DNA of 64,000 bases from an uncultured Actinomycetes bacterium (GTDB lineage Bacteria > Actinomycetota > Acidimicrobiia > Acidimicrobiales > RAAP-2): the NCBI GenBank assembly GCA_903900235.1, contig CAIUMH010000134.1, forward strand, positions 21,866 to 85,865, read 5' to 3'. The first letter of the stretch is position 1; each line of letters begins with the position of its first letter. The position numbers and the translations under genes are program-made. Shown here one piece after another: positions 5,249-41,288 of this stretch. Under the pieces are notes generated by a model that was not told the origin of the DNA, searched no databases, and saw only the letters and a list, made by a program, of their open reading frames with translations.

Positions 5249-5821
5249 TCAGGCCTCAGCGCCACCCTCGTAGTCGAATCCCAGGTCCGGCGCGCTGAGC
5301 ACCGCCCGGAAGGCCCAGCCCTCGGCGGCCGCTAGGCGCTCGGCCGAACCGCCTCGGTCGACGATGGCGGTGAGGAGAACCACTTTGGCGCCGAACTCCT
5401 CGACCGCTCGGGCTGCCTCGAGCAGCGAGGTCCCTCGCGACACGGTGTCCTCAGTGATCACCACCCGGTCACCCGGCTCGAGCGCTCCAGCGATGCGGCC
5501 TCCGGCCCCATGGTCCTTGACCTCCTTGCGGACGCTGAAGATCTTGAGATTGCGGCCCTTGGTGGCGGCGATGCCACCGGTCACGAAGGCCACCGGATCT
5601 GCCCCCATGGTCAGGCCACCAATGGCGGTGGCGTCGTCGGGGATCAGCTCGAGAAGCGCCTCGGCGACGAGCACCATGGCCTCGGGCCGACAGACCGTCT
5701 GCTTCGAGTCGATGAACCAGCTCGAACGCTTGCCGGACTTGAGGACGAAGTCTCCGGTCTTCACGGAGTGCTCACGCAGGTGGGCGGCCAATGCCGCCCT
5801 GGTCGGATCAAGGTCGCTCAC
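5249..5821 (-). CDS. pyrE: Orotate phosphoribosyltransferase
   Basis: GTG start VSDLDPTRAALAAHLREHSVKTGDFVLKSGKRSSWFIDSKQTVCRPEAM..., PRPP motif VVITEDTVSRGTSLLEA; GTGA overlap with purM. Confidence 0.9.
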   Translation of the reverse strand: MSDLDPTRAALAAHLREHSVKTGDFVLKSGKRSSWFIDSKQTVCRPEAMVLVAEALLELIPDDATAIGGLTMGADPVAFVTGGIAATKGRNLKIFSVRKEVKDHGAGGRIAGALEPGDRVVITEDTVSRGTSLLEAARAVEEFGAKVVLLTAIVDRGGSAERLAAAEGWAFRAVLSAPDLGFDYEGGAEA

Positions 5822-6864
5822 AAGATCACCTTTCCACTTCCCGGAACGGTCGTCCCGATGATGGCTGCCGTCACGCCCGAGGAGGCGAGGCCGGAGAGGA
5901 CGTCGTGGGCTCGATCGGCCGCCACGGCCAGGATCATGCCGATGCCCATGTTGAACACCCGGTCCATCTCCTCGGGAGCCACCGCTCCGAGGCGAGCGAT
6001 CTCGCTGAAGATCTCCGGCACCGCGAGGGTCGAGCGATCCACCGTCGCGTCGAGATGCTCGGGAAGCACCCGGTTGAGGTTGCCGGGGATGCCACCTCCG
6101 GTGATGTGGGCGATGGCGTGGACGGCACCCGGGCAAGCCTCGAGCACATCGAGGATGGCGGGCGAGTAGATCACCGAGGGACGGAGCAGCTCGTCGGCCA
6201 CCGTGACCTCGGCTCCCTCCCAGGCGGGGTCGTCGAGGGAGCGACCGGCCCGCTCAAGCAGCACGTGACGCGCCAACGAGTAGCCATTGGACCGCAGGCC
6301 CGGCGAAGCGAGGCCGATGAGGATGTCGCCAAGCTCCACGCGCCCCGAGCCCAGCTCTGTGCCTCGCTCGAGGACACCCACGGCAAATCCGGCGATGTCG
6401 AGATGATCAGCACCCATGACGCCGCCGTGCTCCGCAGTCTCTCCACCGAGCAGGGCGCAGCGGGCCTGGCGGCAGCCCTCCGCCACGCCACCGACGACCT
6501 CGGCGATCCGGTCAGGGTCGACAGCCCCCACGGCCACGTAGTCGAGCAGGAACAGGGGCTCGGCGCCGATGCAGACCAGGTCGTCGACGCACATGGCCAC
6601 GAGGTCGATCCCCACCGTGTCGAAGCGGTCGGCGAGACGGGCGACCTCGAGCTTGGTGCCCACACCGTCGGTGGACGAGACGAGCACGGGGTTAGGGGTG
6701 CGGCTGGTGTCGAGGGCGAACATGCCACCGAAGCCGCCGATGCCACCGAGGACCTCAGGACGAGAAGTGGAGGCGACAACATCCTTGATGGCCTCGACAG
6801 CGGCGTCGCCTGCGGCGATGTCTACGCCGGCGGCGGCATAGGTAGCACTCGACTGTTCGGACAT
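5818..6864 (-). CDS. purM: Phosphoribosylformylglycinamidine cyclo-ligase (AIR synthetase)
   Basis: YAAAGVDIAAGDAAVEAIK, VLVSSTDGVGTKLEVA, HITGGGIPGNLNRVLP. Confidence 0.95.
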   Translation of the reverse strand: MSEQSSATYAAAGVDIAAGDAAVEAIKDVVASTSRPEVLGGIGGFGGMFALDTSRTPNPVLVSSTDGVGTKLEVARLADRFDTVGIDLVAMCVDDLVCIGAEPLFLLDYVAVGAVDPDRIAEVVGGVAEGCRQARCALLGGETAEHGGVMGADHLDIAGFAVGVLERGTELGSGRVELGDILIGLASPGLRSNGYSLARHVLLERAGRSLDDPAWEGAEVTVADELLRPSVIYSPAILDVLEACPGAVHAIAHITGGGIPGNLNRVLPEHLDATVDRSTLAVPEIFSEIARLGAVAPEEMDRVFNMGIGMILAVAADRAHDVLSGLASSGVTAAIIGTTVPGSGKVIL

Positions 6865-6866
6865 GG

Positions 6867-8336
<1,470 letters not shown>

Positions 8337-8431: not shown

Positions 8432-9670
8432 TCAACCGGCCTCGGCGTCCGACGCGCTCGAGCGTCGCAGGCTGAGGGACTTGAGCCGCAGCGCGTTGCG
8501 CTCCACCACCCACCAAGAGGCCAGGGCGAAGGGGACGGTCAGGAGCAGGGTCAGCACGAGGACCACGGGGCGCGGCCAGTGCTGGTCGAGGAGGGCGATG
8601 ACGAACAACTGCACGGGGAAGCCATAGAGGTAGACCCCATAGGAGTAGTCGTGGACGGTGCCGACCCGACGGAAGGGCAGGTGAGCTCCCAGCCACAGCA
8701 CCGGGTAGACCAGCGCCGGGATGAAGACTTGGGTGATCGTGATGCACAGGGCGAGGCGGTCGGTCGAGGGCGTCAGCCACAGCGAGCCATAGGCCACGGC
8801 CGAGCAGCCGATCGCCAGCCAGCCCGAGTCGGGCACCGAATCGCGGTAGAGGTAGAGCAGCGTTCCGACGAGGAACACCGCCAGGAACTTCAGGATGTTC
8901 ATCGGCACCCAGTTGTAGAACACGTTGAAGTGGCTGTTCCACCCCGGGACGAGGGCAATGGCCCCGATCGCCACGAAGATTCCTCCCGTCAGCACCACCA
9001 CCGAGAGTCGGCGTCTGAGCAGTCCGACCAGAGCCAAGCCGGCCAGCACCAGGTAGCAGATGAACTCGTAGTAGAGGGTCCACAGCGAACCGTTGTGCAT
9101 GGTGCCCGAGATCCAGATTTGGCGCATCTCGAGCCACCAGTTGCTGAGCACGTAATTCACCGGCGACGTCGTGGGGAGAAAGATGTGCCTCGTCGGGGAG
9201 AAGTAGTGGCCGAGGCCGGCGTGGGGGGTCCCGCGGTGGATGACAAGCCACACGATGGGCCCGAAAAAGAAAGCGGTCATCAGTAGCGCCACCCAGAAGC
9301 CGGGGAAGATCCGGAGCGCTCGCATCCAGAGGAACCGCAGGGTCCCGTGGGTCTCGGCGCTGCGAGCGATCAAGTAGCCGGAGATCCCGAAGAAGCCGAA
9401 TACCGCCACCGACCCGAGTTCCCCATTGTGGAAGATGGCAATCTGTGCGCGGCTCAGGTCGTATACGTGGCTCACAATGACGGAGATGGCCAGCACTAGG
9501 CGCATGAAGTTCAGGCTGTTGTCCTTGAGGGACAATGCCTCTCCGAGGCTGCGATACGGGGAGCCTCGTCGAACGATGGCCCGACGATAGCCAATGCCTG
9601 ACCTCTCCACAAGGTGGACGCTCACCCCGTGGGATTTCAAAATTCTACCTCCTCGCCTTGTCTCGACCAA
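8432..9670 (-). CDS. Acyltransferase 3 family membrane protein (start uncertain)
   Basis: NFMRLVLAISVIVSHVYDLS, GFFGISGYLIARS, multiple TM segments, DYSYGVYLYGFPVQLFVI. Confidence 0.8.
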   Translation of the reverse strand: MVETRRGGRILKSHGVSVHLVERSGIGYRRAIVRRGSPYRSLGEALSLKDNSLNFMRLVLAISVIVSHVYDLSRAQIAIFHNGELGSVAVFGFFGISGYLIARSAETHGTLRFLWMRALRIFPGFWVALLMTAFFFGPIVWLVIHRGTPHAGLGHYFSPTRHIFLPTTSPVNYVLSNWWLEMRQIWISGTMHNGSLWTLYYEFICYLVLAGLALVGLLRRRLSVVVLTGGIFVAIGAIALVPGWNSHFNVFYNWVPMNILKFLAVFLVGTLLYLYRDSVPDSGWLAIGCSAVAYGSLWLTPSTDRLALCITITQVFIPALVYPVLWLGAHLPFRRVGTVHDYSYGVYLYGFPVQLFVIALLDQHWPRPVVLVLTLLLTVPFALASWWVVERNALRLKSLSLRRSSASDAEAG

Positions 9671-9729
9671 GACTCGGCGGTATGTTCGAGAATCGAACGG
9701 ATCGTCATCCGGTCCGAGGGGGGCCCACT

Positions 9730-11187
9730 ATGACAGAAGGTACGGCAGCGAGGTCACAGGAAAACGTCGGCGTCGTGGTGGTGGCCTATAACGCCGCATC
9801 GACGCTCACCCAGGTCCTCGACCGCCTCCCCGAGTCCTTCCGGTCGCGCGTGGCGGACATCATCGTCTGCGACGACGCCAGCTCCGACACGACCTACGAG
9901 ATCGGTCTCCAGTACAAGGAAACCAGCGACCTTCCTCTCACGGTCATCCGTCGGCCCCAGAACCTTGGCTATGGCGGCAATCAGAAGGCGGCCTATGCCT
10001 GGGCTATCGAGCGCGGCCTCGACATCGTGGTGCTCCTCCACGGCGATGGCCAGTATGCGCCCGAGGTCATCGAGGACATCGTGCGCCCCTTCGCCGAGAC
10101 CGACGCCGACGCCGTCTTTGGTTCGCGCATGTTGCGCAAAGGTGGCGCCCGTTCCGGCGGCATGCCGATGTACAAGTTCGTCGGCAACAAGATCCTCAGT
10201 ACCTTCTCCAATGCGGTCACCGGTCTCGATCTCTCCGAGTGGCACAGCGGCTACCGGGCGTATCGCACCAGCGCTCTGGCCGAGATCCCACTGTCGGTGA
10301 ACTCCGACGGCTTCGACTTCGACACCGAGATCATCCTCCAGTTGCTCGAAGCCGGAAAGAAGATCGTCGAGGTGCCAATCCCCACCTACTACGGCGACGA
10401 GATCTGCTACGTCGACGGCATGGGCTACGCCAAGGACGTCGTCATCGACGTCCTGCGCTACCGCTCCCACAAGATGGGCTTCGGCTCCGGCGAGCTGGCC
10501 TTCGCCGAGGAGGGCTACGACCTCAAGCTGTCCTCGTCCGCCGACTCGTCCCACCAGCAGCTGCTGACCTGGCTCGACGAGGGCGGCCCCAAGCGAATCC
10601 TCGACCTCGGGTGCTCGCACGGACAGTTCGGCGAACTGCTCCGGCTCCAAGGCCACACCGTGATCGGCGTCGACATGGAGAAGCTCGATGGCGTCTCCGA
10701 GCGCCTCGACGGGTTCGTGGAGGCCAACCTCAACGACGGGCTGCCGGCCGAGGTGGGCAGTGACTTCGACGTGGTCATCGGCGCCGACGTCTTCGAGCAC
10801 CTCGCCGAGCCACTCAACCTGCTCGTCGACGTCCAGCGCGTCCTGAGCCCTCGAGGTGTCATCCTCGTGTCGATCCCCAACGTCGCTCACTGGTACGCAC
10901 GAGGCAAGGTGCTCGCCGGATCCTTCGACTACGAGCGACGCGGCATCTTCGACTCAGGTCACCTTCGCTTCTTCACCCGCAAGAGCTTCGAGCGCCTGGC
11001 CAACAAGGCCGGGCTGCGCGTGCGGCGTCAGGTCGGAGTCGGCCTGCCCATCGCCGTGATCGACCGCGGTGGCCCATCGCCGAGCCGATCCATGCGGACC
11101 CTCGGGACCCTCGACCGGACCGGACTCAAGTTGGCTCCCGGCCTCTTCTCGTATCAGCTGCTCTTCGAACTCGAGCCCGTCGAGTAG
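9730..11187 (+). CDS. Bifunctional GT2 glycosyltransferase / SAM-dependent methyltransferase fusion
   Basis: N-terminal VGVVVVAYNAASTLTQVLDRLP...IIVCDDASSDTT...HGDGQYAPEVI (GT2, DPM1-like); C-terminal RILDLGCSHGQFGELLRLQGHTVIGVDM...FDVVIGADVFEHLAEP (class I methyltransferase). Start at MTEGTAARS. Confidence 0.85.
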   Translation: MTEGTAARSQENVGVVVVAYNAASTLTQVLDRLPESFRSRVADIIVCDDASSDTTYEIGLQYKETSDLPLTVIRRPQNLGYGGNQKAAYAWAIERGLDIVVLLHGDGQYAPEVIEDIVRPFAETDADAVFGSRMLRKGGARSGGMPMYKFVGNKILSTFSNAVTGLDLSEWHSGYRAYRTSALAEIPLSVNSDGFDFDTEIILQLLEAGKKIVEVPIPTYYGDEICYVDGMGYAKDVVIDVLRYRSHKMGFGSGELAFAEEGYDLKLSSSADSSHQQLLTWLDEGGPKRILDLGCSHGQFGELLRLQGHTVIGVDMEKLDGVSERLDGFVEANLNDGLPAEVGSDFDVVIGADVFEHLAEPLNLLVDVQRVLSPRGVILVSIPNVAHWYARGKVLAGSFDYERRGIFDSGHLRFFTRKSFERLANKAGLRVRRQVGVGLPIAVIDRGGPSPSRSMRTLGTLDRTGLKLAPGLFSYQLLFELEPVE

Positions 11188-11255: not shown

Positions 11256-12143
11256 ATGGGTGCGATGACAGACAGCGCAACAGCTGGGAACCTCCACGAG
11301 GTGATCGATCTCCCGGCCCTGAACGCACAGCTCCCTGCACTCAAAGCGGCCTATGCCGCCGGCGCGCCCTTCCCCCACATCGCCTTCGAGGACTTCTTGA
11401 ACCCTGACATCCTCGCCGATGCCATCGCCGAGTTCCCCGCCTCCGACAGCGAGGAGTGGAAGGCCTACGCCCACGTCAACGAGCGCAAGTTCTCCAACAC
11501 CCACCCCGAGACCTGGGGCCCGACGCTGCAGTCCATCCTCGGCGCGCTCAACTCCGACGAGTTCATCGCCTTTGTGGGCGAGCTCACCGGCATCGAGGGC
11601 ATGTTCGCCGACCCGACCCTTGAGGGTGGTGGCCTCCATCAGTCGATGCGCGGTGGCTACCTCAACGTCCACGCCGACTTCACTGTCCACCCCCTCCATC
11701 AGAACTGGCGGCGTCGGGTCAACATCCTCGTGTACTTCAACGAGGACTGGGATCCATCCTGGGGCGGCGATCTCGAGCTGTGGAGTCGGGACATGAAGAC
11801 CTGCGGCAAGAAGGTCGCCCCAATCGCCAACCGCTCGGTCATCTTCACCACCGAGGCCGACACCTTCCACGGCCACCCTGAGCCGATGACCCTGCCGGAA
11901 GGTCGAGCTCGCCGCTCGCTGGCGCTCTACTACTTCAGCGTCGATGACCACGCGGTGGTCCAGTCCACCGAGTACCGCGCTCGCCCGAGCGACGGCAATG
12001 CCCACGGTTTCGCCATCTGGGCTGACAAGCACCTCCTGCGAGCCTTCGACTGGTCCAAGCGCCACCTCGGCGTGTCCGATGACCAGGCCCGCAAGGTGCT
12101 CGATCTCATCGACCGGCTGAAGGGCTCCCGCTCAAAGGGCTGA
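11256..12143 (+). CDS. 2-oxoglutarate/Fe(II)-dependent oxygenase (prolyl-4-hydroxylase-like)
   Basis: LNVHADFTVHPLHQNWRRRVNILVYFNEDWDPSWGGDLELW ... HGHPEPMTLPEGRARRSLALYYFS (HxD...H...R). Confidence 0.8.
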   Translation: MGAMTDSATAGNLHEVIDLPALNAQLPALKAAYAAGAPFPHIAFEDFLNPDILADAIAEFPASDSEEWKAYAHVNERKFSNTHPETWGPTLQSILGALNSDEFIAFVGELTGIEGMFADPTLEGGGLHQSMRGGYLNVHADFTVHPLHQNWRRRVNILVYFNEDWDPSWGGDLELWSRDMKTCGKKVAPIANRSVIFTTEADTFHGHPEPMTLPEGRARRSLALYYFSVDDHAVVQSTEYRARPSDGNAHGFAIWADKHLLRAFDWSKRHLGVSDDQARKVLDLIDRLKGSRSKG

Positions 12144-14082
12144 GCCCTCCGCTCCGCCCCACCACGCAGGAGGTGGCGGCGGCGATCCCTGAAGTCGTCG
12201 CCCGGCCGGCGCAGGCCATCATCTCCGCCGCCGAGATCGTCGCCGGAGTCGACGTCGTAGTGAGGTGCCATACCCAGGCTCGATGCTCCAAGCGGGGGGT
12301 GACGCCGGTGGCGGCCGTGATCAGTACGGCGAACTCTGCCGGATGATCGCCGCGGTCATAGGCGGGCAGCTCGGGCTCATCGGGCTCGACCACCGTGGTC
12401 GTCCCCCATTGGCGCAGGGCGATCGACACCTTGGCCACCGATCGTGCCGTGAGCCAGGTGGCCGGGTCCCACCCGGTGTCGGTGTGACTGAGCACGACAT
12501 AGCCCGGCCGTTCACGGCCAGCCCGGCTCGGGTCGCTGCGAGGACCATCGCCGCCCACGAGCGAGTAGCCCATCGTGTCGACCGCCTGCCAGGCCAGCGG
12601 GGCCTGCAGTCCCCCGAAGACCACGGGATAGGTCAGGATCACCCGGCCTGCCGGCTGGTGGCGGCCAGCCGTGTCGAACCATGCCGGGAGCACCACTGGG
12701 GTGGCCGTCAGCGGCGAGGCGGCGATGACTCGAGCACCCTGGGGAAGCATCGCTGCCACCACCAGCACCCCGGCAGCCAAGCCACCGAGGACTGGGGCCA
12801 CGAGGCCCACCGGCCAGCGACGGCGTCCCTGTGCCTCGACGAGGGCCTGCAGCGCTCGAGCGGCGAGCGCCACCACGGCGATCAGGCCGAAGAGCACCAC
12901 TGCGGTGAACCGGATCGGCAGGACGTTCTGGACTACCGGCACCCGAGCCAGGATCCGCCACGGGACCCAGAAGTCGTTGAGCCTCCGATCAGGTGTGAGG
13001 CAGCACCAGACACCGACTGCGCCGACCGCGGCGGCAACCCACGCCCGCCAGGATCGCCGGCACAGCACCAGCCCCGCGAGCACCGCCACCAGGGCACTCC
13101 ATCCCAGGTACTGCATCTGGCCGATGGCCGGGCCCTGATAGCCGCCGAAGCGGTGCACGGTGGTGGTCACGGCGTCCGGCGGGAACCACCGGACGAAGCC
13201 CTCGAGCGTGACGCCGAAATAGCCCGGAGGGGCGGCCAACCACACCAGGCCGCTCAGGTGCGCCGGGCCGGCGAAGGTCACCCACAGCGGATAGGCGAGC
13301 AGCACGACCGACACGCCGAGGCCCACGGCGGTGCCGAGGCCGAGCCGTCGGAGCGCCTCGCCGAGGCCGTCGGGCCGCCGCACCGCGGCGAGGACCCCGA
13401 GCACGACCAGGGCCACCAGAGCCGACAGTGCCGTGACCACCAGCAGCTCGGTCGACAAGAAGTACTGCACCACCACCAGACCACCGAGCGCGCCGCCGAG
13501 CAGCACCGGCGAGCGCCGGCGATCGGTGAGCAGGAGGTCAAGGCAGAGCACCATCAGCGGCGGGGTGACGAGCACGAAGTTGAGCCAGCCTGAGATCAGA
13601 CCGGTCATCATGTAGAGCGAGAACCCCCAGGCCAGGCCCCCGACGAAGGCGATCGGCATCGACTCCACCCACCGGCGGAGCAGCAGGAGCATCCCGGTGG
13701 CTGAGAGCACCGGCAGAACGAACAGAGCGGCGTTGAGCGAAGCCACCGGGCCGGCCAACCACGAGAGGGGGGCCAGTGGGATGCCAAAGCCGAGGACGCT
13801 GGTGTCGTCGAGAAGGTTCAGCCCATTCGGCGGGAAGACCCTCGTGGCATGGAGCAGCGAGGCTCCGTGGGTCAAGGCCCACGCGGGATACTCGACGAAC
13901 CAGAGGTAGCGAGCTGGATCTCCACAGCCGCAGATCGACCTCGTGGTCGGATGGACGGCCACCACGTTCCACAGCACGACCAGCGAACCGAAGGCGTAGA
14001 GACCGATGCAGAGACCGATCGATCGGGCGGGCGACCAGCGCGACACCACGACCTCGTCGATCCCGGCCTCGACCGTGGTCAT
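12106..14082 (-). CDS. GT-C-like polytopic membrane protein, CGCGD family, paralog A
   Basis: HPTTRSICGCGDPARYLWFVEYPAWALTHGASLL...PPNGLNLLDDTSVLGFGIPLAPLSWLAGPVASLNAAL; about 10 TM segments; C-terminal HRAWVWHL and C-x14-C. Confidence 0.7.
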   Translation of the reverse strand: MTTVEAGIDEVVVSRWSPARSIGLCIGLYAFGSLVVLWNVVAVHPTTRSICGCGDPARYLWFVEYPAWALTHGASLLHATRVFPPNGLNLLDDTSVLGFGIPLAPLSWLAGPVASLNAALFVLPVLSATGMLLLLRRWVESMPIAFVGGLAWGFSLYMMTGLISGWLNFVLVTPPLMVLCLDLLLTDRRRSPVLLGGALGGLVVVQYFLSTELLVVTALSALVALVVLGVLAAVRRPDGLGEALRRLGLGTAVGLGVSVVLLAYPLWVTFAGPAHLSGLVWLAAPPGYFGVTLEGFVRWFPPDAVTTTVHRFGGYQGPAIGQMQYLGWSALVAVLAGLVLCRRSWRAWVAAAVGAVGVWCCLTPDRRLNDFWVPWRILARVPVVQNVLPIRFTAVVLFGLIAVVALAARALQALVEAQGRRRWPVGLVAPVLGGLAAGVLVVAAMLPQGARVIAASPLTATPVVLPAWFDTAGRHQPAGRVILTYPVVFGGLQAPLAWQAVDTMGYSLVGGDGPRSDPSRAGRERPGYVVLSHTDTGWDPATWLTARSVAKVSIALRQWGTTTVVEPDEPELPAYDRGDHPAEFAVLITAATGVTPRLEHRAWVWHLTTTSTPATISAAEMMACAGRATTSGIAAATSCVVGRSGGLSPLSGSPSAGR

Positions 14083-16067
14083 GAGCGAAGGTCGGGGACG
14101 GCGAGCAGACAGGAGGTGACCGTGGTGACCGCTCGCGGGCCACGGGGTCCAGCTCCGGCTAGGCAGGTGTCCACCGCCGACCGAGGGATCAGATGCGGCG
14201 GGCCGGCGGCGGAGAGACTCCAGACCCAGGCATGGGCCTGCCAGATCGGGGCCATGCCGGTCGCCAGGGTGAAGAGCGCAGTGGCCTTGGTGATCCGCTG
14301 GATCTGGTCATAGGCCGGCCGGTTCGGCTCGTCAGGGATGACGACCTTGTCGACCCCCCACTGCGACAATGCACGACGCACCAATCGGACACCTGAGGGG
14401 GTCAGCGGGTGGTCGGCGAAGGAGAAGGAATTGTCCCCGATCACCTGCTGGCCGGGCCGCTCGACCCCGGCGCGTTCGATCGCCCCGTCGGGACCACCTC
14501 CGCCGACCATCGAGTAGTGCATCGCGCCGACGGCCTGCCAGGCCATCGAACTCTCGATCATGGCGAAGGGGACCGGCAGCACGAGAAGCACCTGATGAGC
14601 CGGCAGGGTCGGGGCGACGTGGGCGAACCAGTCAGGCAGCGTCACGGGCTCGGCCGAGATCGGCAGCATGGTGCGCAGGTAGGTCGCCGGCTCGACCACA
14701 ACGGCCAGGATCAGCACGCTGCCCACCAGTCCGCCGACGAGCCTCGGAAGGACCGGGGAGCCCTGGGTGGCGGCATGGCCACCGTGGCGACGAGGCTTGA
14801 CCGCTCCCATGGCCCACGCCCGCGAGCGGTCGATGACGATGGCCGCCATGGCTCCGGTGGTCATGAAGGTCATGATCAGGAACCGGCTCGGGATGATGTT
14901 CTCGAACAGCGGACGGCTGCCGAGCAGGTTCCACGGTGCCCAGTGGTGCAACCCAATCCCGAAGGAGGTCCAGGCGGTGAGCACCGAGAGGACGGCGAGC
15001 AGCCACATCCGCCGGTCCCGCCACCAGATGACCACGCCAAGGGTGGAGACGACGGCAATCCCCCACCCGAAGTACTGGCCCGACAGGGTGACCCCCTGAG
15101 ACCCCCCGACCCGGTGGGTGAACGCGAGGAAGCTCTTGGTCCATGGGGTGGCAACGAAGAGGGCCTTGAGGGTCGCCCCCTCGATGCCCAGCGAGATCGT
15201 CGGCCACACTCGACCTGAGATGTGGGCTGGCCCGGCAAGAGCGAACCAGGCCGGATAGGCCAGCAGCACGAGCGCGGTCGCGCTGCCGGTGGCGATCCCC
15301 ACCAGGGCGTGCCGGGCGCGAGCGCGGGCCAGGTCGCGATGGTGCAGGCAGCCGAGCAGGACGAGGAGCAGGCCGACACCCACAGTCATGGCCGTGATCA
15401 GGAGCACCTCGGTGCCGATGAAGAACTGGAACGTGACCAGCAGGCCAAGGGCCACGCCGACGAGGATCGGCCGTATCCGCTGGCGCACCATCAGCTCGTC
15501 GAGACACAGCACCACCAGCGGAGGGACGGCGGCCATGCCCACCATCAGATGGGCGTCGCTCAGCGCCACGAGCGCCATCGACGAGAACCCATAGAGGGCA
15601 CCGGCCACGAAGGCGGCCGGTGCCCAGCGCACCCAGCGGATGGCCAGGGCATACATGGCCATGGCCGACAGCATCGGGGCGAGCAGAAGCGAGACGTTGA
15701 GGGTGGCCACCGGACCGAAGAGCCAGGTGACCCCGGCCAACGGGATACCGAAGCCCAGCTCTGAGGTGTTGGCCAGCAGGTTCGTGCCGTGGGGATACGA
15801 CATGGCCGTCGAGAACAGTGGGGAGAGGCCGTGGCTGATCGCATGAGCCGGCCACTCGAGGAACCACAGGAACAGGGCGGAGTCCCCACACCCGCACGTC
15901 GTGACCGAGCTCGGGTGCGTCGACCACACGTTCCACCAGACCCCGAGCGAGCCGACGAGGTAGAGCATCGACGAGATCAGAAACGGCCGCCACCGAAAGC
16001 GATCGGTGGACGCCGGCGACCCACGCTGCGCCGTCTCCTCGCCGGTCATCTCCTGGACCAGGGTCAT
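14079..16067 (-). CDS. GT-C-like polytopic membrane protein, CGCGD family, paralog B
   Basis: HPSSVTTCGCGDSALFLWFLEWPAHAISHGLSPLF...HGTNLLANTSELGFGIPLAGVTWLFGPVATLNVSL; C-terminal HAWVWSL and C-x17-C; ATGA overlap with paralog A. Confidence 0.7.
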   Translation of the reverse strand: MTLVQEMTGEETAQRGSPASTDRFRWRPFLISSMLYLVGSLGVWWNVWSTHPSSVTTCGCGDSALFLWFLEWPAHAISHGLSPLFSTAMSYPHGTNLLANTSELGFGIPLAGVTWLFGPVATLNVSLLLAPMLSAMAMYALAIRWVRWAPAAFVAGALYGFSSMALVALSDAHLMVGMAAVPPLVVLCLDELMVRQRIRPILVGVALGLLVTFQFFIGTEVLLITAMTVGVGLLLVLLGCLHHRDLARARARHALVGIATGSATALVLLAYPAWFALAGPAHISGRVWPTISLGIEGATLKALFVATPWTKSFLAFTHRVGGSQGVTLSGQYFGWGIAVVSTLGVVIWWRDRRMWLLAVLSVLTAWTSFGIGLHHWAPWNLLGSRPLFENIIPSRFLIMTFMTTGAMAAIVIDRSRAWAMGAVKPRRHGGHAATQGSPVLPRLVGGLVGSVLILAVVVEPATYLRTMLPISAEPVTLPDWFAHVAPTLPAHQVLLVLPVPFAMIESSMAWQAVGAMHYSMVGGGGPDGAIERAGVERPGQQVIGDNSFSFADHPLTPSGVRLVRRALSQWGVDKVVIPDEPNRPAYDQIQRITKATALFTLATGMAPIWQAHAWVWSLSAAGPPHLIPRSAVDTCLAGAGPRGPRAVTTVTSCLLAVPDLRS

Positions 16068-16128
16068 CCTCGGCCTCCGCCGGCAGATCGGTGCACGAGA
16101 CGATGGTACGGCAGCGCGGGCCCCGGGC

Positions 16129-18048
16129 TCAGGAGGCCGTCAGCCTCGGCGCCAGGCACTGCAGCATCGAGGCGACAGGGACGTCCGGATGCGTCTGGCA
16201 GACCTGGTAGCGGGCGACGAGGCTCTCGGACACTGCGGGGAGCGGGTCCGTCACCGGCCAGACCCAGGCGCCGGGCTGCCGGTGCGGGGCGCGGCCCATG
16301 ATCGTGGTGAAGAAGCCGACCGCCCATGCGGTGCTGCGCGCTCGTGCGCCGGGACCGAGGGTCTCCTGGTCCGGCACGACCACCTTGGTCACCCCCCACC
16401 GGTGGATGGCGAGGCGTACGTCGAGGACCCGGGCAGAGATGAGCTGCGGCGACGGGACGAACAGGTAGGCGGCGTCGTTGAGCAGCCGGTAGCCCCTGGC
16501 CACCGAACCGGCTCGGGCAAGGGTGCCCGCCGGCCCGCCCACGCCGGCTTGCGCCCAGCGCATGGCGTTCTTGGCCTGCCAGGCCTGTGAGGCCTGCAAG
16601 CCAGAGAACGGCGCAGGATAGGTAAGCAGCACTTGGCCGGGGGGCAGGTGTGCACCTAGGACGCGGAACCACGTGGGCAGCGTCGATGGCACGGTGGCCA
16701 GGGGGAGCACCGGGGCCACCGTGACCACGTTGGGCACCAGCAGGGCGGCGCACAGGCCGGCGCCGACTGCGGTGAGCCCCGCCGACGGCAACGAGGGCCG
16801 TAGCTCGGCCAGCCGATCGAGTCCCCCGTCGACCGCCCGGGCGGCAGCCACGATGACGCACAGCAGCGTCACCACCGTGAAGCGGTACTCGGCGATGTTG
16901 TTGAGGAACGCGATGTGACGCAGCGTGCTCCACGGGGTCCAGACCGTTCCGGGAGCCAATGACAAAAGCAGCGCCCCTCCCCCCACCGCGAGTGCGAACT
17001 GCAGCACTCGGTCTCGCCGGCAGAGCACGAGGCCGAGCAGGGCCGCCGCCACGAGCCCGGGACCCAGGTAGCTGTAGCTCGGCAGCACGGGGCCGATCCC
17101 CCCGAAGAACTTCTGGATCGCACCTCCATAGGGCGAACCGGTGGGCCAGACCAGGCTCTGGAGCGTCGTGCCCCACCTCCAGATCTTGGCGTCAGGCCCC
17201 CAGATATTGCCGCTGAGGTGGGCGGGGCCTTGGAAGTAGTACCAGGTCGGGTAGGCCAGGAGCACCACCGACACCCCAGCCGTCCAGGACGCCGCTGTCC
17301 CGACGCTGCGAGCAAGGGCTCCCTCGCCGGCACGGTCAGCGCGCACCGCCACCACCAGGGGCACAATCCCGGCCACCGAGACGATGGCGAAGATCAGCAG
17401 GATCTCCGGGCTGAGGAAGAACTGCCAGACCACCAGGAGCCCGAGGACCATGCCCGCCCGCCGCGGTGGCCAGCGATGCTGCCGGATCACGTCGTCGGCG
17501 AGGAGGATCATCAGCGGCGGCAGGGCGATGAAGGCGAGGTTCAGCTGGCCCGATGCCGCCGGATCGAGGACGAAGGTGGCGAACCCATAGGCCGCCCCGA
17601 GGACCAGGGCGACGACGGGTCGGCGGACGAGGCTCCGGAGCAGCACGAACATGGCCAATGCCGAGCAGGCCGGCGCGAGGAGCAGGGCCACGTTCAGCGA
17701 GATGACCGGCCCCGCCAGCAGGGTGAGCGGGATCAGCGGGATCCCCAACCCGAGCACGCTGGTGTCATTGAGCAGGTTGATGCCGGTCGGGTGGTTGAGC
17801 CACGCCGAGAAGAAGGGCGAGTGGCCATGCGTAAGAGCAAAGGCGGGCCACTCGAGGAACCACAAGAAGCGCGAGGCATCGCCGCACCCGCACACCGAGG
17901 TCGACCCCGGCGAGGCCGACCAGATGCCCCACCACACCACGACGGACACCAGCAGATAGAGAACGGTGGCGGCGAGCAACCAGCGCACCGATGAGGACCG
18001 GTGGGGAGGGCGGGCTCGAGCGGTGGGTGTCTCGGCGATGACCGTCAC
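16129..18048 (-). CDS. GT-C-like polytopic membrane protein, CGCGD family, paralog C
   Basis: SPGSTSVCGCGDASRFLWFLEWPAFALTHGHSPFF...TGINLLNDTSVLGLGIPLIPLTLLAGPVISLNVAL; C-terminal GAWVWPV and C-x13-C. Confidence 0.7.
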   Translation of the reverse strand: MTVIAETPTARARPPHRSSSVRWLLAATVLYLLVSVVVWWGIWSASPGSTSVCGCGDASRFLWFLEWPAFALTHGHSPFFSAWLNHPTGINLLNDTSVLGLGIPLIPLTLLAGPVISLNVALLLAPACSALAMFVLLRSLVRRPVVALVLGAAYGFATFVLDPAASGQLNLAFIALPPLMILLADDVIRQHRWPPRRAGMVLGLLVVWQFFLSPEILLIFAIVSVAGIVPLVVAVRADRAGEGALARSVGTAASWTAGVSVVLLAYPTWYYFQGPAHLSGNIWGPDAKIWRWGTTLQSLVWPTGSPYGGAIQKFFGGIGPVLPSYSYLGPGLVAAALLGLVLCRRDRVLQFALAVGGGALLLSLAPGTVWTPWSTLRHIAFLNNIAEYRFTVVTLLCVIVAAARAVDGGLDRLAELRPSLPSAGLTAVGAGLCAALLVPNVVTVAPVLPLATVPSTLPTWFRVLGAHLPPGQVLLTYPAPFSGLQASQAWQAKNAMRWAQAGVGGPAGTLARAGSVARGYRLLNDAAYLFVPSPQLISARVLDVRLAIHRWGVTKVVVPDQETLGPGARARSTAWAVGFFTTIMGRAPHRQPGAWVWPVTDPLPAVSESLVARYQVCQTHPDVPVASMLQCLAPRLTAS

Positions 18049-19913
18049 CTGGCTCCTCCCCTCGCCGTCGTCGAGTCGGAGAGCACGCAGCGTGCCCCAG
18101 CCATCGGGCCCCCGACACTCGCGACCGTACAGCGCCCGAGTCGCCGCTGACGACGGGTATCGACACCGACGGTGGGGTCGAGTGACCAGACCAATGCCTG
18201 CTGGTGCACCGCAGGCAGACGGCCGGTGGCCGCCGTGATCAGGGCCGCGGCGGCGACCGGCTGCAGGGGTCGATCGTAGGCCGGCAGGTCCCGATCGATC
18301 GGCAGCACCACCGTGGTGACCCCCCAGTCGTGGAGGGCCTGGGCTACCGCCGGGACGCTTGCCTCATTAAGTGCGGTCGACGGGAATGCCCCTGAGACCG
18401 TCATCAGGGCCTCCTGGGCGTGGCGATGGGTCCCGGCCATCGACGGATCGGAGCCCGGACCGTCGCCGCCGGCCATAGCGAAGCGGAAGCCAGGGACCAC
18501 CTGCCAGGCCAGCGAGCTCTGCAGGGCCGAGAAGGCCACCGGGATCGGGAGCACAACCGGGCGGGGCCCGAGGCGATGAACCGTGGCAAACCACTGCGGA
18601 ACCACCACCGGCTCGGCGGTCAGCGGCAGCGCGGGAGCGAGCACGGCGGCGAGAGGCGCCAACGCCAGCAGGCCGGCCCCAAGCCCGAGCCCGCGTCCTC
18701 GCCTCGGCCAGCGCGCTGCCACGGCGGCGACCAGGTGGTCGATGACGAGGCCCAGGCACATCGCCAGGCAGCCGATCGCCACGACCAGGAAGCGGACCGG
18801 CACCACGTCGCTGGCCAGTGGGAGGTCGGCGAGGAGCCCCCACGGCCGGAGACCACCACTGCCCAGGGAGAGGGCGAGGGCGACGGTCCCGATGGCACCG
18901 AACAGCCACAGTCGCCGATCGCGGCGGAAGGCCACGAGGCCGATCGCCACCACCAGCAGCACCCCGGGGCCGATGAACTCGGCCGACACCGTCGGTCCCT
19001 GGTACGCCCCAACCCGGTGGGCGAAGGCCTCAAGGACGGTCGAGGAGCTGCTCGGAACGACCAGCGAGTGAAGGCTGGCTCCAACCGACCTGAGCGAGGC
19101 CGAGGGGTAGTAGCTCCCGTGCACATGTGCTCTGCCTCGAAGCGCGAACCAGGTCGGCCAGGCCAGCACGACCACGCTCAGTCCAGCTGCGGTGCTCAGG
19201 CCGAGCAGCGCATGGCGACGGCGAGTGGGGCTCGGTCTGGCGAGCGACGAGCGGACCGCCACCACGAGCAGGCCGATGCCGCAGGCCAGGGCCATCATCG
19301 CCAGCACCTCGGTGGAGATGAAGAACTGCCAGGCGACGAGGCCAGCGAGACCCAGGCCGACCAGCAGCGGCGAACGGCGCTGGGTGACCACCAGCTCGTC
19401 GAGGCAGGCCACGATCAACGGAAGTGCCACCAGCATCCCGACCACGAGGTGGGCCTGGGCCAGGTTCATCAGGACGAACGGTGAGAAGCCGAAGAGCAGG
19501 CCACCGACGAACGCCGCTGGTCGCCACGCCACCCACCGACAGATCAACGCGTACATCGCCATCGCGCTCACTATCGGGGCCACGGTGAGGGCGACGTTGA
19601 GCGAGACGACGGAACCGGCGAGAGCGGTGAGCGGGCTGAGCGGAATCCCGAGGCCCAGCTGCGTCGCACCGTCGAGGACGTTGACCCCTCCGGGATGCCA
19701 CATCAACGGCGTCCACAGGGGCGTCAGACCGTGGCCGACGGCGTGGGCGGCGAAGCCCATGAACCACAACGAGTAGGCCGGATCCCCACAGCCGCACATC
19801 GAGGTGGTGCTCGGGTCGCTCGTCCAGACCGACCAGAAGACCCCGACACCGGCGGCGACATAGAGCCCGGCGGCGAGGATCGTCGAGCGCCAGGAGGACA
19901 CCCGAGTGCTCAC
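18045..19913 (-). CDS. GT-C-like polytopic membrane protein, CGCGD family, paralog D
   Basis: DPSTTSMCGCGDPAYSLWFMGFAAHAVGHGLTPLW...GGVNVLDGATQLGLGIPLSPLTALAGSVVSLNVAL; C-terminal QALVWSL and C-x13-C; GTGA overlaps on both sides. Confidence 0.7.
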   Translation of the reverse strand: MSTRVSSWRSTILAAGLYVAAGVGVFWSVWTSDPSTTSMCGCGDPAYSLWFMGFAAHAVGHGLTPLWTPLMWHPGGVNVLDGATQLGLGIPLSPLTALAGSVVSLNVALTVAPIVSAMAMYALICRWVAWRPAAFVGGLLFGFSPFVLMNLAQAHLVVGMLVALPLIVACLDELVVTQRRSPLLVGLGLAGLVAWQFFISTEVLAMMALACGIGLLVVAVRSSLARPSPTRRRHALLGLSTAAGLSVVVLAWPTWFALRGRAHVHGSYYPSASLRSVGASLHSLVVPSSSSTVLEAFAHRVGAYQGPTVSAEFIGPGVLLVVAIGLVAFRRDRRLWLFGAIGTVALALSLGSGGLRPWGLLADLPLASDVVPVRFLVVAIGCLAMCLGLVIDHLVAAVAARWPRRGRGLGLGAGLLALAPLAAVLAPALPLTAEPVVVPQWFATVHRLGPRPVVLPIPVAFSALQSSLAWQVVPGFRFAMAGGDGPGSDPSMAGTHRHAQEALMTVSGAFPSTALNEASVPAVAQALHDWGVTTVVLPIDRDLPAYDRPLQPVAAAALITAATGRLPAVHQQALVWSLDPTVGVDTRRQRRLGRCTVASVGGPMAGARCVLSDSTTARGGAR

Positions 19914-21685
19914 CGCTTGGGAGCGCAGAGCTGCTGGCGCGCCCGGATCGGGTCGGGCGAGAAGCGCAGGAAGGTGTTCGCCACCGAGGCGACCACGTTG
20001 CCCAGGGCCCGGCCTGGGGTGAGCGGGGCGGTGATGTCGTCGAGGTAGGAGTGCAGGCCTCCGCAGGCCAGCGCACCACGCGCCGCGTCGATCTGGAGTC
20101 GGGTGGCCGCGCCGGGGATCGCCGTCGTCCCGGTCAGGCCGAAGCGACCGAGCATCCAGGCCGGGCCGATGTACTTCTCATGGCCGGGCCGCGCATGGCG
20201 GAGCACGGTGACGTGGCTGCCGATTGGATTGGCCAGCGAGAAGGTGTCGAAGACGTAGACCTCGGGACCCGCAAGGTCGCCGACCACGCCGATGCCGGGG
20301 ATGTTGGCCGCCAGGCGGAAGGGGAGCGGCGACCGGGCGGGCCGATGAGTCGCCGAGGCGAGTGGAGCGAAGGGGTTGGTGATGACGTCCATGCGCTGGG
20401 TACCCGCGGGCTGGCGTGCGGCCGAGACGGCCAGCGCCCTACCGGCTCGGCCTGACAGGGCCCGTCGATAGTCAGCCAGAGTGATCGGGTGGGCCTCGGC
20501 GGTGGCGGCGATCCAGCTGGCTCGCTCGTCGGAGATGAAGATCGTCTGGAGGCCAAGGTGCGTCGGGACCGAGGGCACGTAGCGCAGGCCCACCACGCTC
20601 ATCCCCGCCCAGACCACCATCGCGGCCGCCGCCACCAGCAATGGGGTACGGCGTGGCTCAAGTGAGAGACCCATCGGGAGGCACAGGGCGAAGAGACCGG
20701 GGAGCAGGAGCCGTCCGTGCATGTAGTCGCCGCCGAGGTGGATGACATAGAGGGCGTCGAGGACGCCCACGAGCATCGGGGTCACCACCAGCAGCACGCC
20801 ACGCCGATCCCCGGCGGCCCACCAGGTCCGGGCGGGGACCGCCACCAACACCAGACCGAGGACGAGCGGGAGCCACAGCAAGTAGGGATCGATCAGGTCG
20901 AGTGCATAGGTGGCTCCCTGTGACCACCAGGAGCCGGCCGCGTCCTTGGCCAGGCCTGTGGTGGGGATGAGTAGGGCGTAGTACGCCATCCGGAACAGCT
21001 CGTAGGCCGCCGGGACGATCGCAGCCAGCGCCACCAGGACACCCGCCGATCGGAGCCGGCGGGCATGGACCTCGACCGAGACCAGGCTGGCCACGAAGAC
21101 CGCCGAGGCGATGGCCAGCTCGGGGCGAACCAGCATCCCGAGACCCATCACCACCGCAGAGGTGCGCAGCAGCCGGGACTCATCGGTGGCCACAACCAGC
21201 AGCCAGAACGATCCGGCCAGCCACGCGAAGGCCATCGAGGTCTCGAGGCCAGAGGTCGAGAACTCCCAGACCACGGGCACGGCCGACACCACGAGCAGGC
21301 CCAGCGGAGCCACCTGGACCGCGCCACGCCGAACCCGGAGGCGCTGGAGCGCTCGACCGCCGACGAGGAAGGCGACCAGCGTGCAGACGAGCCCGAGGAG
21401 CACTGAGAGCCACTCGAGCGAGGCGAACGGAGCAAGCAGATGGGCGATCCCGAGCGTGAGAACCCACAATGGGTCGGAGTCGGCCTCGACCCGCTCGCCG
21501 ATGTTGTAGACGGGGCCGTGGCCGGCGAAGACATTGTGGAGGATCCGGAAGTTGATGAACGCGTCCTCGTCGACCCAGCGATAGACCCAGGCCCCGACCA
21601 GAGCCACCGTGGTCGGGATCGCTACGAGGATCCAGCCCATGGCGACCCCTCGACGGCTCACCGCTCTCCCCCTCGACCCGGCCAT
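19910..21685 (-). CDS. AftB-like GT-C membrane glycosyltransferase (arabinofuranosyltransferase-like)
   Basis: VYRWVDEDAFINFRILHNVFAGHGPVYNIGERVEADSDPLWV, GGDYMHGRLLLPGLFAL, VFDTFSLANPIGSHVTV...RPGHEK: pattern of mycobacterial AftB-type proteins as I remember them. Start at MAGSRGRAVSRRG. Confidence 0.65.
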   Translation of the reverse strand: MAGSRGRAVSRRGVAMGWILVAIPTTVALVGAWVYRWVDEDAFINFRILHNVFAGHGPVYNIGERVEADSDPLWVLTLGIAHLLAPFASLEWLSVLLGLVCTLVAFLVGGRALQRLRVRRGAVQVAPLGLLVVSAVPVVWEFSTSGLETSMAFAWLAGSFWLLVVATDESRLLRTSAVVMGLGMLVRPELAIASAVFVASLVSVEVHARRLRSAGVLVALAAIVPAAYELFRMAYYALLIPTTGLAKDAAGSWWSQGATYALDLIDPYLLWLPLVLGLVLVAVPARTWWAAGDRRGVLLVVTPMLVGVLDALYVIHLGGDYMHGRLLLPGLFALCLPMGLSLEPRRTPLLVAAAAMVVWAGMSVVGLRYVPSVPTHLGLQTIFISDERASWIAATAEAHPITLADYRRALSGRAGRALAVSAARQPAGTQRMDVITNPFAPLASATHRPARSPLPFRLAANIPGIGVVGDLAGPEVYVFDTFSLANPIGSHVTVLRHARPGHEKYIGPAWMLGRFGLTGTTAIPGAATRLQIDAARGALACGGLHSYLDDITAPLTPGRALGNVVASVANTFLRFSPDPIRARQQLCAPKR

Positions 21686-21778
21686 CTCTCCATTGTGACC
21701 TCGGTCAGGCGAGAGGTGGTGCGGTACCATCAGCCCGATGCCGAGGCCGTGCCGACGTCCGGGAGCGATGCGGTCGAA

Positions 21779-22930
21779 ATGACGGACGCCACCGACGCCC
21801 CAGTGAGCCCCCTCAGCAGCGAGGCTCCAACCCCGGTGCCTCGGTCGCGGGCCTTTCGTCTCGGAAACCGGCCTCCCCTCACCGGGATCCGAGCCCTCGC
21901 GCTGGCCACCGTCTTGATCTACCACTCGAACTTCAAGACCCTGCCGGGCACGTGGGTGGCGTTGCAGATCTTCTTTGTCCTGTCCGGCTTCCTGATCACT
22001 GCCATGCTGGCCTCGGAGGGCAAGCGCAAGGGCCGAATCAGCCTCTCGGGGTTCTACGCCCGGCGCGGGGTGAGGCTCGTGCCTCCGCTGCTCCTGGTCA
22101 TCGCGCTGCTCGGCATCTACGCCAGCTTCATCCACGTGGCCGATGCTGCCCACCGGGTCTGGGGTGATTCGCTGGCGGCGCTCTTCTACTTCGCCGACTA
22201 CCGCCAGGCCTTCAACCACGCCCCGTTCTTCGGGTATCTCGCCCAGACCTGGTCGCTCTCGGTCGAGGAGCAGTTCTATGTCCTCTGGTCGCTGCTGATG
22301 GTCGTGGCCGTCGTCACCAAGCATCACAAGCTGGCCTATGGGTTCGCCGTCATTGGCCTGGTGGCGAGCACGGTGGATCGGACGTGGATCGTGCTCCACG
22401 CCCACCCGTTCACCGCAGGGACATTCCTGCGTACCTACTACGCGTTCGACCCTCGAGCCGATGCCCTCTTCTTCGGCTGCCTGCTGGGCCTGCTGGCCGC
22501 CGATGGGTGGCTCCTGCAGTGGGCAAGGTGGGCCAAGGGCTCAATCACCGTCCTCGCCGGCATCTCCACGCTGTTCTTCTGCTGGATCCTCCAATACACC
22601 CATCTGTTCGACCGGTCAGTCGTGTTGTGGTGGATCCCGGCCACCACGCTCGCCTCGGGGATCTTGATTGTGTACTTCGTCGTCTGCCCGACAAGCCTCG
22701 GATCGCGATTTGCCGGGATCGGCGTGCTGGTGTTCATCGGCGACCTGTCCTACACGGTGTACCTGCTCCACTTCCCGGTGTACCTCGCCACCATGCCCAG
22801 CGAACTCCACTGGTCCTTCTGGCCCGCCCAGGCCCTGCGGCTGGTCATCATCTTCGGGATTGCCACCCTCAGCTGGTTCCTCATGGAGCGACCCCTGATG
22901 CGCTGGCGCGCCAAGTCCGCCGCTCGCTGA
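21779..22930 (+). CDS. Acyltransferase 3 family protein (OafA/YrhL-like, no SGNH domain)
   Basis: LTGIRALALATVLIYHSN, IFFVLSGFLITAMLASE, TWSLSVEEQFYVLWSLL; start at MTDATDAPVSPL. Confidence 0.85.
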   Translation: MTDATDAPVSPLSSEAPTPVPRSRAFRLGNRPPLTGIRALALATVLIYHSNFKTLPGTWVALQIFFVLSGFLITAMLASEGKRKGRISLSGFYARRGVRLVPPLLLVIALLGIYASFIHVADAAHRVWGDSLAALFYFADYRQAFNHAPFFGYLAQTWSLSVEEQFYVLWSLLMVVAVVTKHHKLAYGFAVIGLVASTVDRTWIVLHAHPFTAGTFLRTYYAFDPRADALFFGCLLGLLAADGWLLQWARWAKGSITVLAGISTLFFCWILQYTHLFDRSVVLWWIPATTLASGILIVYFVVCPTSLGSRFAGIGVLVFIGDLSYTVYLLHFPVYLATMPSELHWSFWPAQALRLVIIFGIATLSWFLMERPLMRWRAKSAAR

Positions 22931-22971
22931 GCGGCCGGTACTTTCCGAGGCACCAGCGATACGATGCGGCG

Positions 22972-25059
22972 GTGCGACCCAGCCCGCCCGCGCTAATCGA
23001 GCCACCGGTCGGCCAGCGCCATCGAGAGCCACCGGTCTCCACCATCCCGGCCCTCGACGGGGTTCGAGCTCTCGGCATCATGCTCGTCCTGCTCTTCCAC
23101 GGTGGCCTGTCGTCGATGGGCGGTGGCTTCTTCGGCGTCGACGTGTTCTTCGTCCTGTCCGGCTTCTTGATCACCGGGCTCCTCCTCGCCGAGTACCGCC
23201 GACAGCGGACCATCGAGCTGCTGCGGTTCTGGGGCCACCGGATCCGTCGCCTGGTCCCCGCCCTCTTGGCCCTGTTGGCCGCCCTCTGCTGCTATGCCGT
23301 CTTCCTTGCCCCCCCCGACACGGTCGGCCAGCTGCGCAGCGATGCCTTCGCCACCATGCTCTACGGCAACAACTGGCACCTGATCAGCCAAGGCCAGGGC
23401 TACTTCGCCGGCCTCGCCCTCCCGCGACCCCTCCTGCACACCTGGTCGCTCTCGATCGAGGAGCAGTTCTATGTGATCTGGCCGCTGCTGGTCCTCGGGA
23501 TCCTGCGGCTGACTCGATCACGCGGCGTACTGCTCGCGGTGGCGCTCGCCGGGGCCACCGCCAGCGCCGTGGAGATGTCCTGGCTCTTCGATGGAGGCAA
23601 GGGTCTCGACCGGGTGTACTACGGGACCGACACCCGGGCCCAGGCCGTCCTGATCGGCGCCGCCCTGGCCATCGTCCTCGCCCGGCCTCTGCGGTCGAAG
23701 CGGACCTCGGGAGCCGACTCGTCCACCCATCTGCTTCGCACTCTCGAGCTCGGACCGGCCAGCCGAGCAGGACTCGGGCTCACCGGCGCCGCGGCCCTCG
23801 CCGGAATCCTCGTTCTGGTCATCTCCACCGACGCGGCGACGACATGGGTCTTCCACGGCGGCTTCGCCGTCATCTCGGTCCTGACCGCCCTGCTCATCGC
23901 CTCGGTCGGCCTCGTCCCCCAAAGCCCGGTCGCCCGGCTCCTCTCGTTGCGGCCAGTCCGCTACGTCGGCGCCATCTCCTATGGCCTCTACCTCTGGCAC
24001 TGGCCACTCTTCGTGGTCCTCGACCACGACCGCACCGGCCTGAGTGGTTTCTGGCTCCTCATCCTGCGCCTGGCCGTCACCGGAGCCGTCGCTGCCCTCT
24101 CCTTCCACCTTCTCGAAATGCCCATCCGGCGAGGCGCCCTTCGAGGGTGGCGCGGATGGGTCGCCGCCCCCCTCGGAATCAGTGCAGTTGCCATCGCCAT
24201 CGCCCTCGTGACAGCGGGAGCCGCACCGGGCATCTCCTCCTATGCCACCATCAAGCCCTCGATGGCAAAGGGGCCCATCAGGTACGTTGACCAAGGGATT
24301 GGGCCCAATGTCCCGGTCGTCGCCGCCGGGACAGACGGGCCCGTGCGGATGCTGCTGCTTGGCAGCTCGGAGGCCACCTTCCTCGCCTTCGGCCTCGGGC
24401 CGATCTCGGCGGCCCACGGCGTGTCCTTCTCCGGTGACGGTGTCATGGGCTGCGGATTCATCCATGCACCCACCGTGCTGCACGGCTCCCTTGAACACGG
24501 GCTGGCCGGCAGCCGCGGGGCGCTGGCAAACCTGGTGCCCTGCTCCACCCAAGAGCAGCGCTGGACCGCCGACCTCGCCGCCTTCAATCCTGATGTCGTG
24601 GTCGTCGCCAACGGGGCCTACGAGGTCCGCGACCACCGGATCGACGGCCGATGGACCCACGTCGGCGACCCGACCTTCGACACCCTGCTCACCCGGACCA
24701 TCTCGAACGATGTCCGCCTGCTGTCGTCCCGGGGCGCCAAGGTGATCCTGCTCACCGCTCCCTACTACCGCCAGGTCGAGGCACCCGACGGTTCAGGCTG
24801 GCCCGAAGATGAGACGGTTCGGGTCGATCGCTACAACCAGATCCTCCGGCACGTTGCCGCCCAGCACCCGGGCCAGGCCATGATCCTCGACCTCCACCGG
24901 CGGCTCGATCCCCACGGCCGGTTCACCCCGGTCATCGGTGGGATCCAAGCTCGGATGTCCGACGGGATCCACCTGACTCCCGCTGGAGCGAAGCTTGTGG
25001 CCCCGTGGATCCTCGATGCCGCACGCCGCGCCGGGTTGACTGCTCGCCAGCAGGGCTGA
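22972..25059 (+). CDS. Acyltransferase 3-SGNH fusion (OafA-like O-acetyltransferase)
   Basis: GTG start; ALDGVRALGIMLVLLFHGG, VFFVLSGFLITGLLLAEYRR, HTWSLSIEEQFYVIWPLL; C-terminal SGNH-like domain VRMLLLGSSEATFLAFGLG...DVVVVANGAYEVRDH...SDGIHLTPAGAKLVAPW. Confidence 0.88.
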   Translation: MRPSPPALIEPPVGQRHREPPVSTIPALDGVRALGIMLVLLFHGGLSSMGGGFFGVDVFFVLSGFLITGLLLAEYRRQRTIELLRFWGHRIRRLVPALLALLAALCCYAVFLAPPDTVGQLRSDAFATMLYGNNWHLISQGQGYFAGLALPRPLLHTWSLSIEEQFYVIWPLLVLGILRLTRSRGVLLAVALAGATASAVEMSWLFDGGKGLDRVYYGTDTRAQAVLIGAALAIVLARPLRSKRTSGADSSTHLLRTLELGPASRAGLGLTGAAALAGILVLVISTDAATTWVFHGGFAVISVLTALLIASVGLVPQSPVARLLSLRPVRYVGAISYGLYLWHWPLFVVLDHDRTGLSGFWLLILRLAVTGAVAALSFHLLEMPIRRGALRGWRGWVAAPLGISAVAIAIALVTAGAAPGISSYATIKPSMAKGPIRYVDQGIGPNVPVVAAGTDGPVRMLLLGSSEATFLAFGLGPISAAHGVSFSGDGVMGCGFIHAPTVLHGSLEHGLAGSRGALANLVPCSTQEQRWTADLAAFNPDVVVVANGAYEVRDHRIDGRWTHVGDPTFDTLLTRTISNDVRLLSSRGAKVILLTAPYYRQVEAPDGSGWPEDETVRVDRYNQILRHVAAQHPGQAMILDLHRRLDPHGRFTPVIGGIQARMSDGIHLTPAGAKLVAPWILDAARRAGLTARQQG

Positions 25060-34741: not shown

Positions 34742-34864
34742 AGACCAAACCTATCGCCCACCACGAGGACCCGAGGACCCCGGTCCACGCAGGTCCCCCG
34801 GCTTCAGCCGACCGTTGTTCATCGTGTTCTCCGCTCATGTCTCACTCATGGAACCAACCTGGCG

Positions 34865-35041
34865 ATGAACTCCTTGAAATTCAAGCAACAGGTTGGCTTC
34901 ACCGCATCGGTACAAGAACTTGCAGAAATTATGGATGCACACTCCCGCATGGGAGAAACTCCAGATCGCATTCTTCATCAGTTTAGAGAGGCGTCCCTGC
35001 CCCTCCGTAACTTTTGTCTACTTCATTTACCTATAAGGTAA
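34865..35041 (+). CDS. Possible small AT-rich ORF (58 aa), unknown
   Basis: MNSLKFKQQVGFTASVQELAEIMDAHSRMGETPDRILHQFREASLPLRNFCLLHLPIR; uncertain. Confidence 0.2.
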   Translation: MNSLKFKQQVGFTASVQELAEIMDAHSRMGETPDRILHQFREASLPLRNFCLLHLPIR

Positions 35042-35075: not shown

Positions 35076-35113
35076 ATCTCAATGAACCAAGAACTACGGA
35101 ACAAGGAGTTGAA

Positions 35114-38698: not shown

Positions 38699-41288
<2,590 letters not shown>

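Follow-up and report, generated by a model that had tools for sequence, protein, structure and literature searches.

The window, the 64,000-nucleotide stretch of DNA analyzed here, contains a tandem array of four minus-strand genes encoding membrane proteins with a CGCGD block, together with a gene for an AftB homolog (Table 1). The ORF coordinates confirmed the four genes and the lengths given for them in the initial annotation, and an alignment of the four proteins confirmed the common motifs it had listed, namely CGCGD, AWQ, GGxGP, WGxxxVVxP, and a late VW. The CxC and two C-terminal Cys residues are invariant in all four array proteins, and the spacings given for the C-terminal Cys (x14, x17, x13, and x13) are right. 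The proteins are ∼38 to 44% identical pairwise, with E values down to 1e-128 within their own genome, which is far beyond chance. At three of the four junctions (19910-19913, 18045-18048, and 14079-14082) adjacent genes share 4 bases, and the fourth junction is a gap of 61 bases (16067 to 16129). The junctions suggest that the four array genes and the upstream AftB-like gene form a single five-gene operon, which would run from 21685 down to 12106 with the AftB homolog first. The genome (2.4 Mb, 157 contigs) encodes three further family members elsewhere, on contigs C47, C91, and C68, which, like the AftB homolog, the initial annotation had not mentioned; the last of these contigs, which carries a distant member, also encodes an 852-aa protein with two tandem GT87 domains (L126, 5873-8431, plus strand).

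Table 1. Features of the window in and around the CGCGD array
Feature	Position	Strand	Remarks
purM-, purF-like genes	5818-8336	-	purine synthesis; flank the array
GT2-methyltransferase fusion	9535-11187	+	polyprenyl-phosphate hexose synthase similarity: AglJ model 2e-21, PpgS 4.1e-15
2OG-Fe(II) oxygenase gene	11256-12143	+	convergent; its end overlaps the end of paralog 1 by 38 bases
CGCGD GT-C paralog 1	12106-14082	-	658 aa, ATG; last in putative operon; 6-row lineage, SH-aLRT 99
CGCGD GT-C paralog 2	14079-16067	-	662 aa, ATG; modeled with AlphaFold (pLDDT 93.7, pTM 0.93); Foldseek GT-C matches
CGCGD block of paralog 2 (residues 58-62)	15882-15896	-	D62 at tip of helix after TM1 (model)
CGCGD GT-C paralog 3	16129-18048	-	639 aa, GTG; 14-row lineage, SH-aLRT 99
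CGCGD GT-C paralog 4	18045-19913	-	622 aa, GTG; closest L030 (49% identity), SH-aLRT 100
AftB-like terminal arabinofuranosyltransferase	19910-21685	-	heads putative operon; start 21685 or 21640 uncertain
Divergent acyltransferase-3 (AT3) gene	21690-22930	+	start approximate; PF01757 5.4e-23; sole NCBIfam match SucT, 40 bits
AT3-SGNH acyltransferase	22384-25059	+	true start probably later; PF01757 and PF19040 (SGNH); sole NCBIfam match SucT, 96.5 bits (cut-off 1275)
purL, purC, purB, purD, purA	32474-41255	-	purine synthesis; flank the array
Second AftB-like gene	55255-57003	+	NF041481 1.6e-56; away from the array

Extent and lineages of the CGCGD family

Pfam and NCBIfam gave no family assignment for the four proteins, and none of them matched the models for EmbABC (PF04602), AftD (PF11847), AftA (PF12250), or AftB (NF041481) above cut-off. 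Single members gave sub-threshold Pfam matches to STT3, DUF2079, DUF6541, and YfhO, weak matches that point to membrane glycosyltransferase-like families. A sequence search of the PDB with queries A1 and A2 returned chance matches only. Scanning 84,980 species genomes identified 78 loci, in Acidimicrobiaceae-type MAGs and in Micromonosporaceae, the members from the latter being ∼24 to 30% identical; distant relatives also occur in Nocardia and Embleya, and none of the viral contigs encodes a relative. Within a set of 41 genomes comprising the organism's own and its relatives, the family is present in 27. The closest records to the window genes come from MAGs labeled Acidimicrobiaceae, paralog 3 shares 82% identity with a protein in isolate Jr-7aug17-95, and the same stretch is found in a genome of the same genus (G003; the matches of L028 and L087 are identical).

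In a 90-member tree the four window genes fall in four separate lineages, three of them firmly supported and each with members in other genomes or genera. This topology rules out a recent tandem duplication, and the array is therefore a retained set of distinct proteins, which is what might be anticipated were each paralog to form a different bond. The initial annotation had proposed that the proteins are lipid-linked sugar transferases of a duplicated family, a description that is supported here. The lineage of paralog 3 is the one that usually comes after AftB in other genomes. Micromonospora and its relatives (L051 to L084) show a recurrent three-gene cluster of distant members, two in line and one convergent, in genomes lacking DprE1. 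At another locus (L020, 4806-6189, plus strand), an intact CGCGD gene has next to it two short pieces of such a gene that are out of frame and are perhaps a decayed paralog.

Fold, candidate active-site residues, and cysteine pairs

An AlphaFold model of paralog 2, built from 92 sequences, contains eleven helices in the membrane along with an α/β domain at the C terminus; a second model, of paralog 4 and built without an alignment, reached a pLDDT of only 41.6 and was set aside, and nothing was drawn from it. Foldseek comparison of the paralog 2 model with the PDB identified STT3/oligosaccharyltransferase (OST; E value of 1.8e-7), AftA (5.0e-5), AglB, DPY19, AftD (1.3e-4), and Pmt4, and all 14 matches with E < 0.001 are GT-C enzymes or complexes containing one. 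The TM-scores, ∼0.4 to 0.5, do not favor an arabinosyltransferase over an OST. Counts of Lys and Arg in the four window proteins give 19 to 29 per 100 residues on the inner side versus 5 to 7 on the outer, which places the N terminus inside and loop 1 outside. Between TM1 and TM2 the model contains two helices (61-78 and 97-107), in the place of the juxtamembrane (JM) helices of GT-C_A proteins. The model and its matches to solved GT-C enzymes thus support the GT-C class that had been proposed for these proteins, an assignment that we regard, on this predicted structure, as very nearly certain.

The Asp of the CGCGD block (D62 in paralog 2) is invariant in 133 of 133 homologs, starts helix 61-78 in the model and is predicted, from the model and the charge counts, to be extracytoplasmic. 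An essential Asp is located at the tip of that helix in all GT-C_A enzymes, according to the report on AftB, in which the D62A variant is inactive and the donor phosphate is held by two Arg residues (PMC12041299). The earlier proposal of the loop-1 Asp as a candidate catalytic residue is thus strengthened by its invariance and its position at the tip of JM1, and its predicted role would be that of catalytic acid/base (or nucleophile). Other conserved residues are E220 and N96, both invariant, and R395 (96%), which lies at the outer end of TM10 and is a candidate for holding the donor phosphate; by analogy we infer that it may do so as the Arg pair of AftB does.

The CxC is present in 77 of the 133 members, never as just one of its two Cys residues, and the C-terminal Cys pair in 70. 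Both traits occur together in 66 members, CxC without any C-terminal Cys in 8 (one of which, L018, ends at a contig end), CxC with a single C-terminal Cys in 3, the C-terminal pair alone in 4, and neither in 52. The Micromonosporaceae relatives lack CxC. Of the three members with one C-terminal Cys, one is truncated at a contig end and another has an unread residue; in all, three of the eleven CxC members without a full C-terminal pair are affected in one of these ways. On the tree the two traits show 6 and 7 changes of state, and informative pairs were too few for an independent-pairs test. It had been suggested that disulfides or a metal join loop 1 to the C-terminal domain, but among the homologs the pairs separate in both directions and the suggestion is not supported. 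Because each pair behaves as a unit and the units are separable, two intra-pair disulfides fit better than a bridge from loop to domain. Judging from these patterns of conservation, there is probably a CxC disulfide, which would fix the catalytic loop beside the Asp, and a separate second disulfide formed by the C-terminal pair; alternatively, the Cys residues may bind a metal.

Gene context and the arabinose donor pathway

The AftB-like gene upstream of the array matches NF041481 with an E value of 4.6e-74 and 249.6 bits, under the curated cut-off of 1050, and its product aligns over residues 15 to 577 with the solved AftB (PDB ID: 9dlf) with a phmmer E value of 3.6e-64. The arrangement recurs in many Acidimicrobiaceae, and an AftB-like gene followed by CGCGD genes was observed at L015, L016, L017, L019, L021, L022, L023, L025, L027, L029, and L050, mostly with AT3 and AT3-SGNH genes nearby and often on the opposite strand. 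Homology of the CGCGD proteins themselves to AftB was rejected on sequence (hhalign against an AftB alignment, probability 3.6%), although fold and context agree. We also considered the GT2-methyltransferase fusion as a fixed partner and rejected it, as it is not conserved beside CGCGD genes, with only 22-bit matches in related loci.

On contig C53 of the same genome lie adjacent genes for DPPR synthase (UbiA; NF008978, 327 bits, cut-off 207), DprE1 (NF053785, 528.6 bits, cut-off 500, and E value of 2.6e-107 to solved structures), and DprE2 (249.2 bits, just short of the cut-off of 250). Contig C48 encodes an AftD (272.8 bits, cut-off 26) with a weak CBM_AftD match and a polysaccharide-flippase-like gene near it. 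EmbABC and AftA gave no match in this genome, in a search for which the control, Corynebacterium glutamicum, was positive for both, and the genome thus lacks the enzymes known to prime and elongate arabinan. Across the 41 genomes EmbABC was not found in 40, the single match being a 43-residue fragment outside the family. GT87 genes are present, and these could also be the missing arabinosyltransferases.

In each of the 25 genomes of the family, the DprE1 score exceeds the cut-off. DprE1 is likewise present in all 17 genomes whose CGCGD match reaches 300 bits (p = 0.002; 41 genomes), and AftB homologs occur in 7 of these 17 versus none of the 24 others (p = 0.0009), p values that are both confounded by relatedness because most of the genomes belong to one family. 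DprE1 is found as well in genomes without CGCGD genes (G004, G005, G011, G017, G026, and others). Conversely, the Micromonosporaceae-type genomes with distant members lack DprE1 in 8 of 8 cases (best score 75 bits, cut-off 500), and hence the wider family would not be confined to arabinose and would have no general need for decaprenyl-phospho-arabinose (DPA).

Proposed function and comparison with known systems

The donor pathway of the genome and the AftB context point to D-arabinofuranose as the likely sugar. The best single reading, to which we give a slight preference overall, is that the CGCGD group are DPA-dependent arabinosyltransferases, with donor, acceptor, and linkage as we infer them. 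The four array genes would then encode four old, separate enzymes of an unnamed GT-C_A family, each with its N terminus inside, eleven membrane helices, and the C-terminal α/β domain outside; each would draw an arabinofuranosyl unit from the polyprenyl-phosphate donor that UbiA, DprE1, and DprE2 produce, a lipid-arabinose donor shared with Mycobacterium tuberculosis, and extend an arabinan at the cell surface with it, with the co-operonic AftB homolog (end-capping) and AftD as working partners. The adjoining AT3/SGNH enzymes may acylate the arabinan. More tentatively, and with well under even confidence, we speculate that D-arabinan in Acidimicrobiia could be built without EmbABC and AftA, the CGCGD proteins being a separately evolved priming, elongating, and branching set whose catalytic loop would be held by the CxC disulfide.

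The main rival, which we consider a real possibility of distinctly less than even probability, is that these GT-C enzymes rely on a different sugar carried by polyprenyl phosphate (mannose, glucose, galactose, or a different pentofuranose) to decorate a wall polysaccharide or protein, AftB and DPA serving another step. The DprE1-lacking Micromonosporaceae relatives would fit such a role, as would the GT2-methyltransferase fusion just past the array, and GT136 provides a precedent for a GT-C system that uses another pentofuranose (PMC11127046). However, the fusion gene is convergent, outside the operon and not conserved beside CGCGD genes; the conserved partner is AftB, and DprE1 is present wherever a genome has a strong CGCGD match.

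It is improbable that the proteins are oligosaccharyltransferase- or PMT-like protein glycosyltransferases. The top Foldseek matches are indeed OST catalytic subunits (E values of 1.8e-7 to 3.2e-6), and two members have weak STT3 Pfam matches, but the TM-scores to OST (0.47/0.44) are no better than those to AftA (0.47/0.50), the WWDYG motif was not found among the conserved residues, and four paralogs next to AftB and acyltransferases suit stepwise building of a polymer. Even more improbable, in our estimation, is a family of inactive or regulatory GT-C pseudoenzymes acting as subunit partners of AftB: several diverged copies in the same operon as AftB could be read in this way, but the Asp, E220, and N96 never vary among the homologs and R395 varies little, and 10 of the 17 strong-match genomes have CGCGD genes without a detected AftB.

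Ethambutol (Emb) and the benzothiazinones (DprE1) target D-arabinan synthesis, a process that to our knowledge has been treated almost exclusively in mycobacteria and related organisms. None of the papers searched describes D-arabinan synthesis in Acidimicrobiia. What is new here is a GT-C family without an assignment, found in an arabinan context that lacks Emb and AftA, not a new kind of machinery. If the arabinosyltransferase reading is true, the combination of a complete DPA pathway, AftB, and AftD with an unnamed GT-C family replacing Emb and AftA would constitute a second route to arabinan, would bear on the evolution of the mycobacterial wall, and would offer new GT-C enzymes for the linkage-specific transfer of Araf.

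The closest known systems are the mycobacterial arabinosyltransferases AftA, AftD, AftB, and EmbA/B/C (GT-C_A), with which the CGCGD system shares the GT-C fold, an Asp at the tip of JM1, the DPA pathway and a co-operonic AftB; AftB also has 11 TM helices, with its C-terminal domain on the outside, and AftA and AftD are among the Foldseek matches. The CGCGD proteins differ in the CxC that directly precedes the candidate catalytic Asp, in their C-terminal pair of Cys residues, in not being assigned by Pfam to Emb, AftA, or AftD, and in giving no sequence-profile match to AftB. The AT3 neighbors resemble mycobacterial SucT, an AT3 enzyme required for succinylation of AG and LAM (PMC10503756), but the SucT scores are far under the curated cut-off and we do not claim orthology. 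STT3/AglB oligosaccharyltransferases share the fold and a loop-1 acidic residue, whereas they are only ∼10% identical to the CGCGD protein and have another gene context, and protein acceptors are not indicated for the CGCGD group. GT136 (Citrobacter youngae ORF12), compared by its paper only, is likewise a GT-C_A enzyme with 11 TM helices and a domain after TM11, and belongs to a three-component system with a lipid-phospho-pentofuranose donor derived from PRPP (PMC11127046). That domain is a β-rich CBM in GT136 and α/β in the CGCGD protein, and GT136 is a single gene, whereas the CGCGD genome has several paralogs and a DprE1/DprE2 route.
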